Below, in pieces: positions 4,757-14,872 of a DNA stretch of 64,000 nt. The first letter of the stretch is position 1; each line of letters starts with the position of its first letter. The notes below the pieces were generated by a model that searched no databases, was not told the DNA's origin, and saw nothing but the letters and a program-made list of their open reading frames with translations. This DNA is from Ktedonobacter sp. SOSP1-85 (GTDB lineage: Bacteria; Chloroflexota; Ktedonobacteria; Ktedonobacterales; Ktedonobacteraceae), in assembly GCF_016587415.1 (NCBI RefSeq), contig NZ_BNJI01000001.1:3821501-3885500 (forward strand). The letters run 5' to 3'. The translations under genes were made by a program, and so were the position numbers.

Positions 4757-5470
4757 TTATTCGCCCTGGGAAATCGAGGAGGCCTGGTGCTGAGCTACGT
4801 TGGTATGTCTGCGCCCGGCGTACTCTTTCAGTATCTCACCAATCTCCTCCGGGTTACCATACGCCTCATCGCGTACGACGATGACCTGCTTGTCATTCTC
4901 TGTGTTGAGGAAGGCAAGCGATACCGGTGTGCGCGTGCGCTTGTTCTGCCACTGGCGGCCACTCCTGGTGGCGCCGCGTCCCACGAAGAAGCCAGCGATA
5001 TTTTCACCCATTGTGGGCAGCGAGCGCACCGTTACCTGCTCATCCTCGCTAATCGTACGACTGGCACTGCGCACGCCACGCGCGGTGATATGCTCAACGT
5101 TTTCCATCGGGACCTGGATGACTTTGTTACCCTCTTGCTTGACAAAATTTTCCGGGGTGAAGACAAAGATATGTTTGTCAGATGTAAAAAGACGTTTGAT
5201 GTCGACCACCAGCGTCCAGAGGCTGCCCAGCCCGATAAAGAGAAACATTCCGAGCATAAGCAGAGTAAAGATAATCAGGATCGGACCACGCTGAAAGTTA
5301 TCGGGAATGACGATGGGTAGCACGAGCGCGAATAGCCCCAGCCCTATAATAGTGCCAAAGGCCCAACCCGCAATACCCCACTGGAGCTTTTTACGAAGAA
5401 TTGGAAAAACTGTCCAGTTGCTTGGATAGGCACCGGACCTGGCCTGCGCAAGGATTTCTTCTGCTTGCAT
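4757..5470 (-). CDS. Hypothetical membrane protein upstream of coaX
   Basis: A protein of 237 residues with two strong transmembrane helices (about residues 34-58 and 64-92), followed by a soluble C-terminal half of beta-rich, PH-like character that contains a Lys/Arg-rich stretch (RSGRQWQNKRTRT). The start is placed at the ATG at 5470 because AAAGGAG sits 6 nt upstream; a longer frame from 5518 lacks such a site. The topology resembles small bacterial membrane proteins with a cytoplasmic PH-like domain, but no family is claimed. It is probably co-transcribed with coaX. Confidence 0.7.
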   Translation of the reverse strand: MQAEEILAQARSGAYPSNWTVFPILRKKLQWGIAGWAFGTIIGLGLFALVLPIVIPDNFQRGPILIIFTLLMLGMFLFIGLGSLWTLVVDIKRLFTSDKHIFVFTPENFVKQEGNKVIQVPMENVEHITARGVRSASRTISEDEQVTVRSLPTMGENIAGFFVGRGATRSGRQWQNKRTRTPVSLAFLNTENDKQVIVVRDEAYGNPEEIGEILKEYAGRRHTNVAQHQASSISQGE

Positions 5471-5561
5471 GGCGTACTCCTTTAGTTTCGCTGTAAGGCT
5501 AGTTCTTATATTCGACACATTATATCAGAACGTGAGATGTCATGCACAAGAAGATTAGCAC

Positions 5562-5616
5562 CTGGGGTGGGCAGAGAGGCACTGGCATTTGCCCAGTGCC
5601 TCTCTGCCCACCCCAG
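5562..5616. terminator. Long perfect hairpin, 24-bp stem
   Basis: Arms 5562-5585 and 5593-5616 pair perfectly around a 7-nt loop. The element lies between the divergent starts of the membrane-protein gene and the large helicase gene, so here it cannot be a simple 3' terminator for either. No T run follows. Confidence 0.5.
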
Positions 5617-5701
5617 ACACTAATAATAGTAAATATGGTAAAATGAGGAGTGCGAATAAGCTACCCGTGGATGTTTGCGGTTGAAGGCGAGATGGAGAGC
5701 A

Positions 5702-8700
5702 ATGGATCGCGAGATAGAGAGCTATTGGTTTACCTTTGCCGAAAGGGCGGCGCAACTGGCGCTTCACTCCTTTCGGAGAGAATATCCCTCCTGGACAGAG
5801 GACGAGACCCCTCTAGACGAGCTTGTACACTGGCTTGAGCTGAATGTAGAGACATTTCACCCCGTAGATTACCCGGATGGCACCTTTGGTTTTATGGACC
5901 CCGACGAGGAGGAAAACCTGATCTGGTTGTGCCGGGATATGCATGAGACGCTGCGTCGCTTTACATTGGCTCATGAACTGGGGCATGCCATCCTGCATTG
6001 CCAGGGGACTACGCGTATTCAGCAACTGGTCCAGGAGGTCGAGCAAGCACTACAAGAGAGCCAGGTGCCAGAGACCGAGCGCTATCAACAGACCCTGCTG
6101 TCTATTCCTACACCCGCTTTATCACTGCCAACACGTGCCGATCCCTGTCAGGAGCAGGACATGAACCTGCACTTGCTGGACCAGGATCATCTCCAGGAGA
6201 CGCTGGGTCTCGGACTCACCTATGATCCCCGTAGCCAGCGGGAGTTGGCCGCGAATCTCTTTGCCGCCGAATTGCTGATGCCACGCGAGCGCGTACGCAG
6301 ACTCTACCTGGAGGAACAGGTCGCGCCAGCCTCTCTGGCGGCCAGCTTCGGCGTCTCACAGGCCGCGATGCTCAATCGCCTGGCCGGCTTTCTGCAAGAC
6401 GCCCTACTTAGTAAGCCGCTCCCACCCCAGGCCCCAAAGCCAGCGGCACAGCCCTCCAGTCCCGCCAAAAAGCGCTATGATACCTACCAGCAAGCGGCCA
6501 TTGAGGCACCGACGCCAGCCCTGATTGTCGCGGGGCCTGGAAGCGGAAAGACCAGTACGTTAATTGGGCGCATCGAATATATGGTGCGTACGCTCCAGGT
6601 GCCTCCAGCGCAGATTCTGGCCCTGACCTTCTCGCGCAAGGCCGCCCAGGAGATGGAGGAACGTTTAGCTCAGGTCTTGACCCGGCAGTTACCGAAAGTC
6701 AGCACCTTCCATGCCTTCTGCGCCGATCTCTTGCGCCGCTATGGCGAGTTAGTTGGTCTGCGCCCGGGCTTTACTCTGTTGGATGAGGCCGAGGGCTACT
6801 TCCTTCTGCGCCAGTTGTCGCACTCCATGCGCTTAAAACACTATGTCAAATTGAGTGCACCTACCTTTTATTTTCCCGATATGCTCAAAGCCATTTCCAG
6901 GGCGAAAGATGAACTGATAACGCCCGAGGAGTATACGCGCCTGGCGCAAACTATGTTTGAGCTGGCGCAGGGACAGGATGATACTGAGGTCCTTGAGCGC
7001 GCAGAGAAGGCCCTGGAGATTGCCCAGGTCTATACGCTTTACGAGCAGGCCCTGGGGCGGCGTGGCGACTGCGATTTTGGTGGCCTCTTGCTGCTGACGG
7101 TACGCCTGCTTCGCGAGCATCCAGAGGTGCTGGCGGAACAGCAGCAGGTGTATCAGTATGTCCTGGTTGATGAGTTTCAGGATATGAATAGAGCCAGTGG
7201 CGTCCTCTTACGTGTGCTGGCAGGCGAGGCCGGTCGCGTCTGGGTTGTAGGAGACGCGAATCAGGCCATCTATGGCTTTCGGGGCGCCTCACCCGCGAAT
7301 ATCAGCCAGTTTGCCCAGGACTTCCCCGGTGCGGTGATCCTACCGCTCAGCCGTAACTATCGCTCGCGCCCGGATCTCGTCTCTCTGGCGGAGGCTTTTC
7401 GTTGTAGCTACCTGGATAAGGGCCAGGAGCCAGGCAAAAATCAGCCGGTGCGTGTGGCAGAGACCGGACCATATGTTACACTCGCCCAGGCGAGCAATGA
7501 GGCCAGCGAGGTCGCGGGCATCATCGCGGATATTCAGCATAAACGCCGCCAGGGGTATAACTATAAAGATATGATGGTGCTCTGCCGGACGCGAAGCCAG
7601 GCCCAGAAGATCACGCGTGCCCTACTGGAGGCGGACTTGCCCACTCACGAACGCGCTGGCACGTTGGAACAGGAGCACATAAAGGACGCGCTGGGGATGC
7701 TGCTGTTGTTGAGCAATGAGAGCGGCATGGGGCTGTTGCGCGTGGCGCGCCTGCCCGATTATCGCTTCAGTCAGGAGGATATAGAGGTCCTCTTGCTATC
7801 CGCTCGCGAGCGCCAGGTCAGTCCACGCAGCCTGCTGCTCAGCGAAGAGTTTTCTCTTGACATCAGCGCAGAGGGAAGATCGGCCATGCAGCGCCAGGTC
7901 AGCAGTATGCGTGCCTTGCAGCAGTGTAATGATACCTGGACCTGTATGAGCCAGTATCTCCTCCAGGAGACCAGCCTGGTGCGTGATCTCCTGCGCTACC
8001 CGGAGGACGAGGTCGCGAAAGGCCTGCTGCTGGATTATGATCGCTTGCTCCAACTAGCGAGGCATTATGACCAGCAGTTGGAGGCGCGGCGCCGGGTCCT
8101 GGCCCAGGAGGTTGTATCCCTGGAAGAGCTCTCTATGGAGGCGCGCCTGAAGGGCTTTTTGGAGTACCTTAGTATGCTAGTGGTGTTGCGCCAGGATGGG
8201 GCCACGCGTGAAAGTGGTGAGGGCGAGGACGAAGAAGAGGCGAATATCATCCAGGTCATGACGGTCCACGCCAGCAAGGGACTGGAGTTTCCTGTGGTGT
8301 ATATGCCGGGCCTGGTGCAGAATAGATTTCCCCTGACCTATCGCTCAAGCGCTGTCAACGCGCCTGATGGAATGCTGCTAGCGGAAAACACTGGGCGCGC
8401 CGCTCATGATAGCGGTGAAGCCTGCCTCTTTTATGTTGGTGCAACACGCGCGCGCGATCACCTGGTGCTGAGCTATAGCGAGCGTTATGGCAAGAAGTCG
8501 TATAAGCGCTCCCTCTTCCTTGATCCCCTGGAGGCCGCGATGCCCCAGGAACGTTTGACGCAACTCGCCTGGGAGGCCCATGGCGAGATTGAGGAGCGTG
8601 TAGAGGAATCCCTCAAGCCGATCTCGATACAGCCTGGCGAGCGCTTTCTGGATCGAATGCGCCCCACTGACCTCAGCTCGTCTTTGGTAGAGATGTATCG

Positions 8701-9400
8701 CCGCTGTCCTCGTCAATATGCCTACAGTACGGTCTATCATTTCGATGGTGATGCCGATGCCTACCGCCTCTTCCGCCAGGCAACCCAGCAAACGGTTGAA
8801 GTGCTGCATAAACAACTGGCGAGTATGGCTGATAGCCAGGGGACCTTGCCCACGTTTGAGGAATTGGAAGCGCTTTACAAGCGACACTGGCGCGAACTGG
8901 GAGGGGAAGATATGCCCTTCGCGCCTATGTATGAAGCGCATGGTATTGAGGTCGTAGAGGGAATACGCCAGAAGCTGGTAACGCAGAGCGAGACCCAATG
9001 GTCCATGCGCGAGAGCCTGCATGTGGACCTCGCTGGTCGCTCCGTACGCGTGACCGTGGATCGTATTGAGAGCTCTTCGCAGCCACAGGAGGAGGGGCCA
9101 TTACGCTTTGTGCGCACGCGCTATGGCAAGAGCAAGGAGAAGCCGAAGGCAGACACACGTGAATTCTTCTATACACTGGCATCGCGCCAGCACCATCCTG
9201 GGCGCCCGGTCGAACTCCACAGCCATAATATGAGCACTGGCGAGACCATACCTATGAAGTTGACCGAGAAGAAGGAGCAGAGCCTCTACGGCGAACTGGA
9301 GCAATGTATCGAGGGCATTGAACGCGACGAGTATCCCGCGCGCCCCGCGGAACCCTCCCGCTGCCCCACCTGCCCATTCTTCTTTATCTGCCCAGCATAG
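5702..9400 (+). CDS. ImmA/IrrE metallopeptidase - UvrD helicase - PD-(D/E)XK-like fusion
   Basis: This 1,232-residue protein joins three modules. Residues 1-220 form an ImmA/IrrE-type zinc peptidase with H91-E-L-G-H95 and a downstream NLFAAELLMP segment holding the third ligand. Residues 260-970 form a superfamily 1A helicase with all motifs: GPGSGKTS (278-285), TFSRKAAQEM, DEFQD (490-494), GDANQAIYGFRG, NYRSRPD, TVHASKGLEFPVVY and VGATRARDHLVLSYS. Residues 980-1232 resemble the AddB/Cas4 nuclease domain, with iron-sulfur-type cysteines at 1002, 1221, 1224 and 1230. The DRIE motif (Asp1120) is present, but the usual VVDYKTG strand reads FVRTRYG, so cleavage is probably lost. The start is the ATG with GGAG just upstream; a TTG at 5675 is possible. 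It stands alone between hairpins. DNA repair or defence is inferred. Confidence 0.85.
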   Translation: MDREIESYWFTFAERAAQLALHSFRREYPSWTEDETPLDELVHWLELNVETFHPVDYPDGTFGFMDPDEEENLIWLCRDMHETLRRFTLAHELGHAILHCQGTTRIQQLVQEVEQALQESQVPETERYQQTLLSIPTPALSLPTRADPCQEQDMNLHLLDQDHLQETLGLGLTYDPRSQRELAANLFAAELLMPRERVRRLYLEEQVAPASLAASFGVSQAAMLNRLAGFLQDALLSKPLPPQAPKPAAQPSSPAKKRYDTYQQAAIEAPTPALIVAGPGSGKTSTLIGRIEYMVRTLQVPPAQILALTFSRKAAQEMEERLAQVLTRQLPKVSTFHAFCADLLRRYGELVGLRPGFTLLDEAEGYFLLRQLSHSMRLKHYVKLSAPTFYFPDMLKAISRAKDELITPEEYTRLAQTMFELAQGQDDTEVLERAEKALEIAQVYTLYEQALGRRGDCDFGGLLLLTVRLLREHPEVLAEQQQVYQYVLVDEFQDMNRASGVLLRVLAGEAGRVWVVGDANQAIYGFRGASPANISQFAQDFPGAVILPLSRNYRSRPDLVSLAEAFRCSYLDKGQEPGKNQPVRVAETGPYVTLAQASNEASEVAGIIADIQHKRRQGYNYKDMMVLCRTRSQAQKITRALLEADLPTHERAGTLEQEHIKDALGMLLLLSNESGMGLLRVARLPDYRFSQEDIEVLLLSARERQVSPRSLLLSEEFSLDISAEGRSAMQRQVSSMRALQQCNDTWTCMSQYLLQETSLVRDLLRYPEDEVAKGLLLDYDRLLQLARHYDQQLEARRRVLAQEVVSLEELSMEARLKGFLEYLSMLVVLRQDGATRESGEGEDEEEANIIQVMTVHASKGLEFPVVYMPGLVQNRFPLTYRSSAVNAPDGMLLAENTGRAAHDSGEACLFYVGATRARDHLVLSYSERYGKKSYKRSLFLDPLEAAMPQERLTQLAWEAHGEIEERVEESLKPISIQPGERFLDRMRPTDLSSSLVEMYRRCPRQYAYSTVYHFDGDADAYRLFRQATQQTVEVLHKQLASMADSQGTLPTFEELEALYKRHWRELGGEDMPFAPMYEAHGIEVVEGIRQKLVTQSETQWSMRESLHVDLAGRSVRVTVDRIESSSQPQEEGPLRFVRTRYGKSKEKPKADTREFFYTLASRQHHPGRPVELHSHNMSTGETIPMKLTEKKEQSLYGELEQCIEGIERDEYPARPAEPSRCPTCPFFFICPA

Positions 9401-9405
9401 AGATA

Positions 9406-9472
9406 CTTGGCAACAGATGGAGTGCGTGCTGGCAACCAGCAGTCGCCAGCACGCACTCCATCTGTTACCAAG
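9406..9472. terminator. Long hairpin after the helicase gene, 28-bp stem
   Basis: Arms 9406-9433 and 9445-9472 pair over 28 bp with one mismatch and an 11-nt loop. It begins 5 nt after the helicase stop codon. There is no T run, so either the stem length alone or protein factors would be needed for termination. Confidence 0.6.
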
Positions 9473-9630
9473 GCCATAGGTGGTAGGGAGTGTGTGGTGT
9501 CACGCAAATACACTACGCATGGTGTTACTTATAGCGATGCGCCAGTCACGAATAATGGGGTAGAATGTAGAGAAACACACCTTGTGTGCGGGCTATTTTA
9601 GAGTGTGTCACAGGAGAAAGGCGGAATTGT

Positions 9631-9873
9631 ATGAACGATCAAGGTATTCTCAGACATATAGAAGAACTGGTCAACGAAGAGCATGAGCTGATGCAGAAGA
9701 AGGAGAATGGGGAGTTACAGGACGATCAGCATGAGCGTATTCACCAGTTAGAAGTCCAGCTAGACCAGTGCTGGGACCTCTTGCGTCAGCGCCGCGCGCG
9801 CCGCAACGTGGGGCAAGATCCTGATGCAGCCCAGGTGCGTGACCCCAATATTGTTGAGAACTACAAACAATAA
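9631..9873 (+). CDS. DUF2630 family protein
   Basis: An 80-residue, highly charged helical protein matching the DUF2630 pattern: N-terminal MNDQGILRHIEELVNEEH, a central heptad-like helix, the hallmark LDQCWDLLRQRRARR and a C-terminal DPDAAQVRDPNIVENY. The function of the family is unknown; it is widespread in Actinobacteria and Chloroflexota. The ATG at 9631 is preceded by AGGAGAAAGGCGG. Its stop codon lies inside the left arm of the hairpin at 9865-9930. Confidence 0.85.
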   Translation: MNDQGILRHIEELVNEEHELMQKKENGELQDDQHERIHQLEVQLDQCWDLLRQRRARRNVGQDPDAAQVRDPNIVENYKQ

Positions 9874-13505: not shown

Positions 13506-14872
13506 TCGTATGCAAATGTATGCAAGCACACACCCACACCAAATTTCGTTGTTGCTGCTTCATTCGTAGGTGCCTCAATGTGACCGGCACATTTTTGGTC
13601 TTACCCCGCGTCCACAGCCCGCGTTTGCGTCTTCGTCCGAGCCAGTACCGGAGACGGCTTGATCAATGAGCCCGATCAAGCGGAGGGCTTCCTGCAAGAT
13701 ATTCAACGCCGCGTTATGATCTCTCTCCTGCGCGAATTGGTAGTACGCACATTCGGGGTTCTGGCAGAGGAACACGCGGTCCGACAACTGCATGGTTTCC
13801 CACTTCCAGTCGCAGCAATGGCAGGTTTTACTCGATGGAAAGAAGCGGTCCACTTTGATCACCTGCCCGCCTCGCTGCTCCATTTTGCTGGTCAGCAGAG
13901 AGAGCAGTTTGCCGAACGCCGCGTCCGAAAGCGAGCGAGCCAGCGTGCGATTTTTCAGTAACCCTTTGAGGTGGAGATCCTCAATGCCAATGATCCCATA
14001 ACAGGTGGCGAGCCTAGTGGTCAGCTTGTGGAGCACATCATCGCGCAGACAGGTAATCCGATAATGCAGCCGTGCCACCTGTCGACGTGCTTTCTCCCGA
14101 TTCGCGGGATCCCGCCTTCCTGCGGTGGAGCCGCTTGTTGGCCCGACGGAGTTTCCCCAGAGCCGTTTTGAGGAAGGCTTGGTTCTCGATTCCCTCTCCC
14201 GTACTCAAGGTCGCCAGTCGGTTGAGACCCACGTCGATCCCTATGGCCGCTGGCTTGTTCTCCGGCAGGGTCTCTGGCATTTCGACCTGGATGGACACAA
14301 ACCACCACTCGGCTGTTTTGGTGATGCGTACCCCCTTCACCCGGCCCTCAAACCGGAGCTTCTCGGCCATATTCACCCAGCCGAGCTTGGGGATCCACAT
14401 GCGGTGATCACCCAGTTCAAACTGATCGTTGGCAAGGTAGAAACTCGGCGTACTGCGCTTCTTGCTTTTGAACTTCGGGCGGCGTGCACGGCCCTCAAAG
14501 AATGCGGTAAACGCCTTGCCCAAATCGAGAAAGGGCTGATCAGAGGCGTTCTTGGTGATCTCCCAAGTCCAGGGGAATTGCTCGCGCCTGATCTCGTTAA
14601 ACTGCTTCTTGAGCTTGAAGGCGGTGGGGTTTCCCCCGGCCTCATATTGGCGGTTCCACTCAGCCAATGCCCAGTTCCAGACAAAGCGTGCGGTCCCGGC
14701 GGCTTTGGCAAAGTACACCACCTGCTCCGGTGTCGGATGCAGTCTGATCTTATGCGCCTTGATCATCCCTCACATCCTTTCACAGAACCGCTGCTCGAAT
14801 CAGGTTGTTGTTTAAAACATATGTTCTACAACTACATCTTACCCTATTTTCCTCGCTTTTTCAATACTGTTG
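13505..14872 (-). mobile_element. IS1341-type (IS605 group) element carrying only tnpB
   Basis: About 1.37 kb separating the two halves of the DUF2851 gene. It contains a tnpB-type gene and no Y1 transposase (tnpA). The ends are approximate. Near the upstream end a small palindrome (TTTCAA-CAGTA-TTGAAA) is visible, and near the other end TTGCATAC is repeated within 20 nt, features expected of IS605-group subterminal hairpins. The strip between the tnpB stop and the DUF2851 remnant is where a guide (omega/reRNA) would be read out. Movement would need a TnpA supplied in trans. Confidence 0.75.
13575..14766 (-). pseudogene. tnpB: TnpB-family RNA-guided nuclease, frameshifted
   Basis: Two overlapping frames together give a full TnpB of about 397 residues. 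The first part (14766 to 14038) has the N-terminal MIKAHKIRLHPTPEQ and the RuvC Asp in GIDVGLNRLATLSTGEG (Asp178). The second (from about 14105 to 13575) has the RuvC Glu in GIEDLHLKG, a four-Cys zinc ribbon (CHCCDW and CQNPECAYY) and the last RuvC Asp in ERDHNAALNI. One extra base near 14101-14106 (CGCGAATCGG where CGCAATCGG would keep frame) separates them. All catalytic residues survive, so the damage looks recent. A sequencing error at this G/C run is possible. Confidence 0.85.

Follow-up and report, generated by a model that had tools for sequence, protein, structure and literature searches.

The window analysed here is a stretch of 64,000 nucleotides (nt) from Ktedonobacter sp. SOSP1-85 (contig NZ_BNJI01000001.1) that contains, on the forward strand at 5702-9400, a gene coding for a single chain of 1,232 amino acids (plus stop) in which an M78 peptidase, a UvrD helicase and an iron-sulphur (Fe-S) domain resembling a dead nuclease are fused. 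We favour, with somewhat more confidence than doubt, the reading that this fusion is the sensor-protease of a three-part system, whose other two members would be a sigma-like factor and an XRE-like partner. As such, it would probably serve as an alarm for DNA damage or invaders. The observations from which this reading is built are the domain anatomy of the protein, its kept peptidase residues and lost nuclease core, the conservation of a three-gene module in relatives, the co-occurrence of its parts and the grouping of the solitary genes in one clade.

The reading frame is unbroken from the ATG at 5702 to the stop codon at 9398-9400 (coding sequence 5702-9397), with an in-frame TTG ahead of it at 5675, and four Pfam domains are found within this one frame, which bears out the fusion described in an earlier note made from the DNA letters. 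The N-terminal module (residues 1-254, 5702-6463), supported by AlphaFold2, Foldseek and Pfam, comprises an M78 fold and helix-turn-helix (HTH)-like helices at residues 195-237. Peptidase_M78 (PF06114), whose absence the earlier note would have taken as a refutation, was matched here with E=1e-15 and 58 bits, against a cut-off of 22. This module carries the zinc motif HELGH (residues 91-95, 5972-5986) and, within the stretch ExxAxxFAxELLxP, Glu181 (6242-6244), which we take, from what is known of the M78 family, to be the third zinc ligand. It is followed by the UvrD/REP helicase N-terminal domain (residues 262-542, 6485-7327; PF00580, 2.8e-65), which contains the Walker A sequence AGPGSGKT (residues 277-284, 6530-6553), and by the UvrD_C domain (residues 549-927, 7346-8482; PF13361, 2.1e-36). 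The C-terminal end (residues 991-1231, 8672-9394) is a nuclease-fold domain of the Cas4/AddB/AdnA-like Fe-S type that lacks the catalytic core, recognised by Pfam (PDDEXK_1, 5.2e-10) and Foldseek, in which the four Fe-S-type cysteines are Cys1002 (8705-8707) and, as CxxCx5C, Cys1221, Cys1224 and Cys1230 (9362-9391).

The conservation of these elements was counted in an alignment of 63 fusion members from several phyla. HExxH is kept in 62/63 of them and the presumed third-ligand glutamate in all 63, while AGPGxGKT is present in the 40/40 Chloroflexota members aligned. The four C-terminal cysteines (C...CxxCx5C) are found in 63/63 members, being the sole invariant columns of the C-terminal alignment. 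By contrast, the D-(D/E)xK nuclease core is gone in every one of the 63, mostly with a basic RxRxG stretch in its place. The intact HELGH and the four cysteines beside a changed nuclease core had both been pointed out in the earlier note. The peptidase and the motor look maintained and the nuclease looks dead, its Fe-S fold being retained presumably for holding DNA. The only aligned member without HExxH, that of locus L076 (Abditibacteriaceae; 5806-9456), has HAIGH instead, and it also lacks the XRE neighbour described below; a DinB-like gene lies downstream by eye. This is a possible inactive-peptidase version of the fusion.

Predicted structures agree with these assignments. In the AlphaFold2 model of residues 1-254 (mean predicted local distance difference test, pLDDT, 75; residues 124-171 unreliable), the best Foldseek matches in the PDB were IrrE (3dti, 3dte), PprI bound to single-stranded DNA (ssDNA) (8sln), PprI (8slm) and CapP (7t5t), all with probability 1.00 but with E-values of 7e-4 to 5e-3 and TM-scores of about 0.41-0.45. 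The model of residues 967-1232 (pLDDT 87) matched Argonaute-associated Cas4 (ACE1), AdnA, Dna2, AddB, EXO5 and Cas4, in all cases with probability 1.00, and the helicase part resembles PcrA. The protein therefore has the M78 peptidase features that were tested (a profile score over the cut-off, HExxH, the third glutamate and a fold match) as well as those of a superfamily 1A (SF1A) UvrD-type helicase, namely both UvrD domains and Walker A.

The fusion is ancient and common to several phyla. In a sample of 400 Chloroflexota genomes, it was found in 26 of the 29 genomes of the family. Most of the remaining genomes of the order also have it, as do further families of the phylum, and it was full-length wherever the contig allowed. 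Because full-length orthologues with the same domain order exist elsewhere in the genus, the family, the order and the phylum, the fusion is no product of an assembly join or a frameshift, a possibility that the earlier note had raised against itself. Moreover, the M78 part was joined to the helicase in every member compared. Phage records matched the helicase part only, and none covered 80% of the query, so that a phage origin was rejected.

In Chloroflexota outside a clade of solitary genes (see below), a sigma-like gene, an XRE-like gene and the fusion gene follow one another on one strand, often zero to few bases apart. The sigma-like protein has 215-340 amino acids, with Pfam matches to Sigma70_r4_2 of up to 4e-12 and, in one case, to Sigma70_ECF over residues 22-206 (1.8e-6), and the XRE-like protein has about 200-250 (HTH_31, 8e-9). 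A hidden Markov model (HMM) was built from the Chloroflexota XRE proteins alone, and with it the XRE gene was detected directly upstream of the fusion in 27/27 loci. This count covers the loci from named genomes, Ktedonobacteria and L104 not included, whose peptidase is intact and for which DNA ahead of the fusion was available; they belong to Acidobacteriota, Nitrospirota, many Proteobacteria and Chloroflexota. Locus L088, the same gene as that of the sampled Ktedonobacterial genome G204, has no upstream XRE gene, as expected for the solitary type. The gene before the XRE gene is sigma-like by size and, in most loci, by a C-terminal HTH seen by eye, with Pfam support ranging from 9e-15 to below the cut-off. 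In five Chloroflexota loci (L037, L038, L039, L043 and L054), a DUF4258 gene lies close to the sigma-XRE-fusion operon, assigned by Pfam for the L039 copy and by similarity for the rest.

Most loci outside Chloroflexota also share what lies behind the fusion, namely either genes for a ubiquitin-like protein, DUF7665, JAB and ThiF, or genes for a multiubiquitin, DUF6791-ThiF and DUF6527. PADLOC identified the first set as BilA (1e-53), BilB (1e-59), BilC (1e-64) and BilD (1e-168), and Pfam recognised Multi_ubiq (1.3e-54), DUF6791 and DUF6527 in the second. The same gene order is found on a tumour-inducing (Ti) plasmid, an Acinetobacter plasmid and a Xanthomonas plasmid, as well as on one E. coli chromosome, where it is flanked by insertion sequences (IS elements); these copies are annotated as hypothetical, UvrD, multiubiquitin, ThiF or DUF6527. 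Not all such operons have the module. For instance, it was absent from Burkholderia and Rhizobium loci with distant BilD homologues, and the controller slot of a Cytobacillus multiubiquitin plasmid contains, by eye, GHKL-kinase-like and STAS-like genes, as for CapK/CapS (PMC13373217). On a Cupriavidus plasmid (L211, 4135-5543), the sigma-like and XRE-partner genes (9e-39) stand ahead of Bil genes with no helicase gene between. On a Spirosoma plasmid (L214, 2711-7301), a sigma-70 gene and a weak XRE-partner homologue (3.5e-9) are divergent from a multiubiquitin operon and accompanied by a PDDEXK gene that seemingly keeps a D-x-K core and by an 829-amino-acid protein with PIWI-like stretches by eye. 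From this last locus, the sigma-XRE pair may combine with other DNA sensors.

In Ktedonobacteria, the same parts are present but unlinked. The genome of the window (11.0 Mb in 3 contigs) has one M78-UvrD protein, in accordance with the expectation of a single gene, and five weaker matches that involve the helicase part only. With the XRE profile, two homologues of full length were identified in the genome: one at C1:5977550 (1e-29), about 2.1 Mb from the fusion, and one at C1:3558897 (8e-20), about 0.27 Mb from it. Both lie directly behind a sigma-like gene (Sigma70_r4_2, 1e-10 and 2.5e-8, over the cut-off) and have no fusion nearby. The XRE-type protein that the earlier note had proposed to look for does exist, adjoining the fusion in relatives and encoded in trans in this genome. 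A sigma-like gene was upstream in 22/22 XRE genes read in Ktedonobacteria (these two and 20 further loci, among which L200, L205 and probably L201 are operon-type second copies, not unlinked pairs). A C-terminal motif like S-F-x-x-A-I-x-x-S-x-M-S-x-E-D-K-x-x-W, or in a tighter form SFAEAIxRSxMSxEDKxFW, is present in most of the Ktedonobacterial XRE partners read.

The fusion is, in fact, a core gene of the whole order. The XRE partner was detected in 47/47 genomes and the N-terminal part of the fusion in 42/47, the five others being incomplete and fragmented; both genes were present in 14/14 good genomes. When two match tables were compared for the 400-genome sample (XRE matches at E<=1e-14), no fusion-bearing genome without the XRE partner was found. 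In a quick tree of the helicase and C-terminal parts (long branches, unresolved base), the 27 solitary genes formed one clade with support of 100; the unlinking of the fusion from the sigma-XRE genes therefore probably happened once. Some Ktedonobacteria of a sister family have an operon-type copy besides the solitary gene (L051, L055). LexA-type genes were found in 45 of the 47 genomes of the order. A substitute for a missing LexA/SOS system was thus rejected, and the system would act alongside the SOS response instead of taking its place.

By analogy with better-known systems, a mechanism may be proposed. The SF1A helicase, together with its non-cutting Fe-S domain, would load on and track aberrant or foreign DNA, exposing ssDNA. 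The presence of ssDNA near the N-terminal module would activate the M78 zinc peptidase, as in PprI, which binds ssDNA and is thereby strongly activated to cut DdrO (PMC10904395), and in CapP, which has been reported to be activated by ssDNA, with CapH as its substrate (PMC13373217). The active peptidase would then cut the XRE-like partner, which, judging from operon conservation, may silence the sigma-like factor or its promoter; this partner could work as an anti-sigma factor, as a repressor at the promoter, or in both ways. The freed sigma factor would turn on its targets, namely the downstream BilABCD or multiubiquitin/E1/DUF6527 operon in many Proteobacteria and Acidobacteria and, in Ktedonobacteria, a putative regulon reached through the two unlinked sigma-XRE pairs (at ~3.559 Mb and ~5.978 Mb of C1). 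The idea that one chain senses DNA and releases a repressor had been put forward in the earlier note; the matches to the folds of IrrE, ssDNA-bound PprI and CapP and the existence of an XRE partner speak for it, while the cleavage is a step that we infer.

Among the systems similar to this proposal is CapH/CapP of cyclic oligonucleotide-based antiphage signalling systems (CBASS) and Bub operons, where the genes for an XRE-type protein and an M78 peptidase likewise precede immune operons, some of them ubiquitin-like. Nevertheless, CapP is a stand-alone M78-HTH protein, while the fusion also has a full SF1A helicase and a dead-nuclease domain of the Fe-S type; its XRE-like partner has conserved N- and C-terminal regions of its own, and the sigma-like factor is a third partner. 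Moreover, an XRE gene and an immune operon adjoin the fusion in operon-type relatives, whereas neither does so in the window. The fusion is thus not CapP, but it may work like it. PprI (IrrE)/DdrO of Deinococcus is also alike, as it comprises an M78 peptidase with an HTH-like domain, is triggered by ssDNA (PMC10904395) and is a core gene of its lineage. However, PprI has no helicase and ends in a GAF-like C-terminal domain, no sigma factor takes part, and the order studied here also keeps LexA-type genes. Like the unlinked genes of the window genome, the gene for the repressor DdrO does not adjoin that for PprI in D. radiodurans. CapK/CapS and CapW take the corresponding controller position ahead of Bub-type operons and respond to DNA damage (PMC13373217), but they are kinase/STAS or WYL proteins and share no domain with the fusion. 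Among 544 Bub operons, 219 were reported with CapW or CapH+CapP and 59 with CapK+CapS, and that study makes no mention of a helicase (PMC13373217).

With AdnAB/AddAB, the fusion shares a UvrD-type motor and an Fe-S PDDEXK-fold domain with four cysteines framing the fold. In contrast to them, it is a single chain with an N-terminal peptidase, and an identity as an AddAB/AdnAB nuclease was rejected because the catalytic core D-(D/E)xK is lost. The genes of the BilABCD antiphage system (bacterial ISG15-like) immediately follow the module in many relatives but do not adjoin the window gene, and the fusion would be a putative controller of this system rather than a Bil component. Gabija membership was also rejected, since no gene for the OLD-type nuclease GajA lies beside the fusion and the GajB matches reflect general UvrD similarity. 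In the papers that were read, we found neither the fusion nor the sigma-XRE-fusion module described earlier, although a prior mention in work on Bil or Bub is possible.

Several points weigh against the proposed system. Pfam detects region 4 of a sigma factor but in most cases not region 2, several of the proteobacterial sigma-like genes fall below its cut-off, and some of the "sigma" genes might encode sigma-like activators instead. For those partners from Acidobacteria and Xanthomonas that were tested, Pfam gave no XRE HTH match; they are called homologous by the HMM. The cleavage, the trigger and the regulon are all putative, and the partner was chosen from operon conservation and co-occurrence. 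As for the solitary fusion, its link to the distant pairs would follow from homology and co-occurrence, and the latter is confounded by shared descent within one order. Finally, there was no Multi_ubiq match in the window genome, where BilA-D were not searched genome-wide. A link to phage defence, suggested at the outset, is supported for the relatives with Bil or multiubiquitin operons downstream, but not for the organism of the window, where the fusion is an order-wide core gene.

The resemblance of the helicase and C-terminal folds to PcrA, AdnA, AddB and Dna2, along with the core chromosomal position of the gene in the order, might indicate an ordinary AdnA/AddB-like helicase for DNA repair or end processing, with the M78 part as an accessory for self-processing or turnover, for example. 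This is quite unlikely, as the nuclease core has been lost throughout while HExxH was kept in all members but one, and a repair enzyme would not need a fixed linkage to sigma and XRE genes. The fusion could instead be a direct antiphage effector, with a helicase that attacks invading DNA or remodels it. The sigma and XRE genes would then serve only to control the fusion's own expression, and the peptidase would reset or limit it. The patchy distribution on plasmids, the location between IS elements in one E. coli and the GajB-like helicase scores would suit such a role. However, the nuclease is dead, PcrA, UvrD and Rep models score at least as well as GajB on the helicase part, and Ktedonobacteria retain both the fusion and the sigma-XRE genes though these are unlinked, which makes an effector unlikely.

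For Ktedonobacteria in particular, the peptidase might have a different target, such as some other repressor or a protein of a phage, in which case the two sigma-XRE pairs would be an unrelated paralogous system. The solitary gene, its housekeeping-like neighbours and the old unlinking would be in line with this, but we find it decidedly improbable given that every genome of the order has the XRE partner, with the same C-terminal motif in most of those read, and that no fusion-bearing genome of the 400 sampled lacks it. An XRE-M78 toxin-antitoxin pair, with the helicase-peptidase as toxin, is suggested by the occasional annotation of XRE-M78 proteins as repressor/antitoxin (there is a weak match to the NCBIfam spr1629 family). 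We give this hardly any credence, since the fusion persists alone in Ktedonobacteria with no adjacent antitoxin and the sigma-like gene belongs to the module.

In the window, the fusion gene stands alone, with no adjoining XRE gene or immune operon and no ubiquitin-like, E2, JAB or E1 genes identified beside it. On its 5' side there is a divergent gene for a membrane protein of about 250 amino acids (4757-5518), which adjoins the fusion in most genomes of the family, as well as in two from sister families, and then a coaX-like gene. The 3' side has a small DUF2630 gene directly behind the fusion (9619-9870; Pfam, 4.7e-31), followed by plsC-like and cmk-like genes. Two hairpins had been regarded as insulating the gene. 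Both exist, one with 32-nt arms at 5554-5624 and another with 31-nt arms at 9406-9472, behind the stop codon, but insulation is not supported, because the former is located between two divergently transcribed genes and terminates neither of them. When the upstream regions of 14 solitary fusion genes were inspected by eye, a TATAAT-like box was all that was seen; therefore, no sigma-specific motif can be claimed. Further downstream in the window (13575-14766), two overlapping frames together resemble a broken TnpB-type (IS605 OrfB) transposase gene.

In summary, the earlier note was right on the protein and roughly so on its function, without foreseeing the sigma factor, the dispersed modules or the ubiquitin-like operons. 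As the genes of the module are currently annotated as "UvrD-helicase", "hypothetical" or "LuxR family", it is easily overlooked. We give about an even chance to the broader view of a widespread form of DNA-damage or invader signalling, where a helicase-protease would release a dedicated sigma factor by destroying an XRE-like inhibitor. In Proteobacteria it would be a mobile controller for ubiquitin-like immunity, and in Ktedonobacteria it would have become a dispersed core stress regulon. The known controllers of immune operons (CapH/CapP, CapW, CapK/CapS) respond to ssDNA made by other processes. If our reading is true, a chain with its own DNA motor would sense by doing, its alarm being tripped only by DNA that it can load on and open, and ubiquitin-like immunity would have a switch of a new kind, with a sigma factor as its output. 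Ktedonobacteria would then be a lineage where the same parts became core, unlinked genes.

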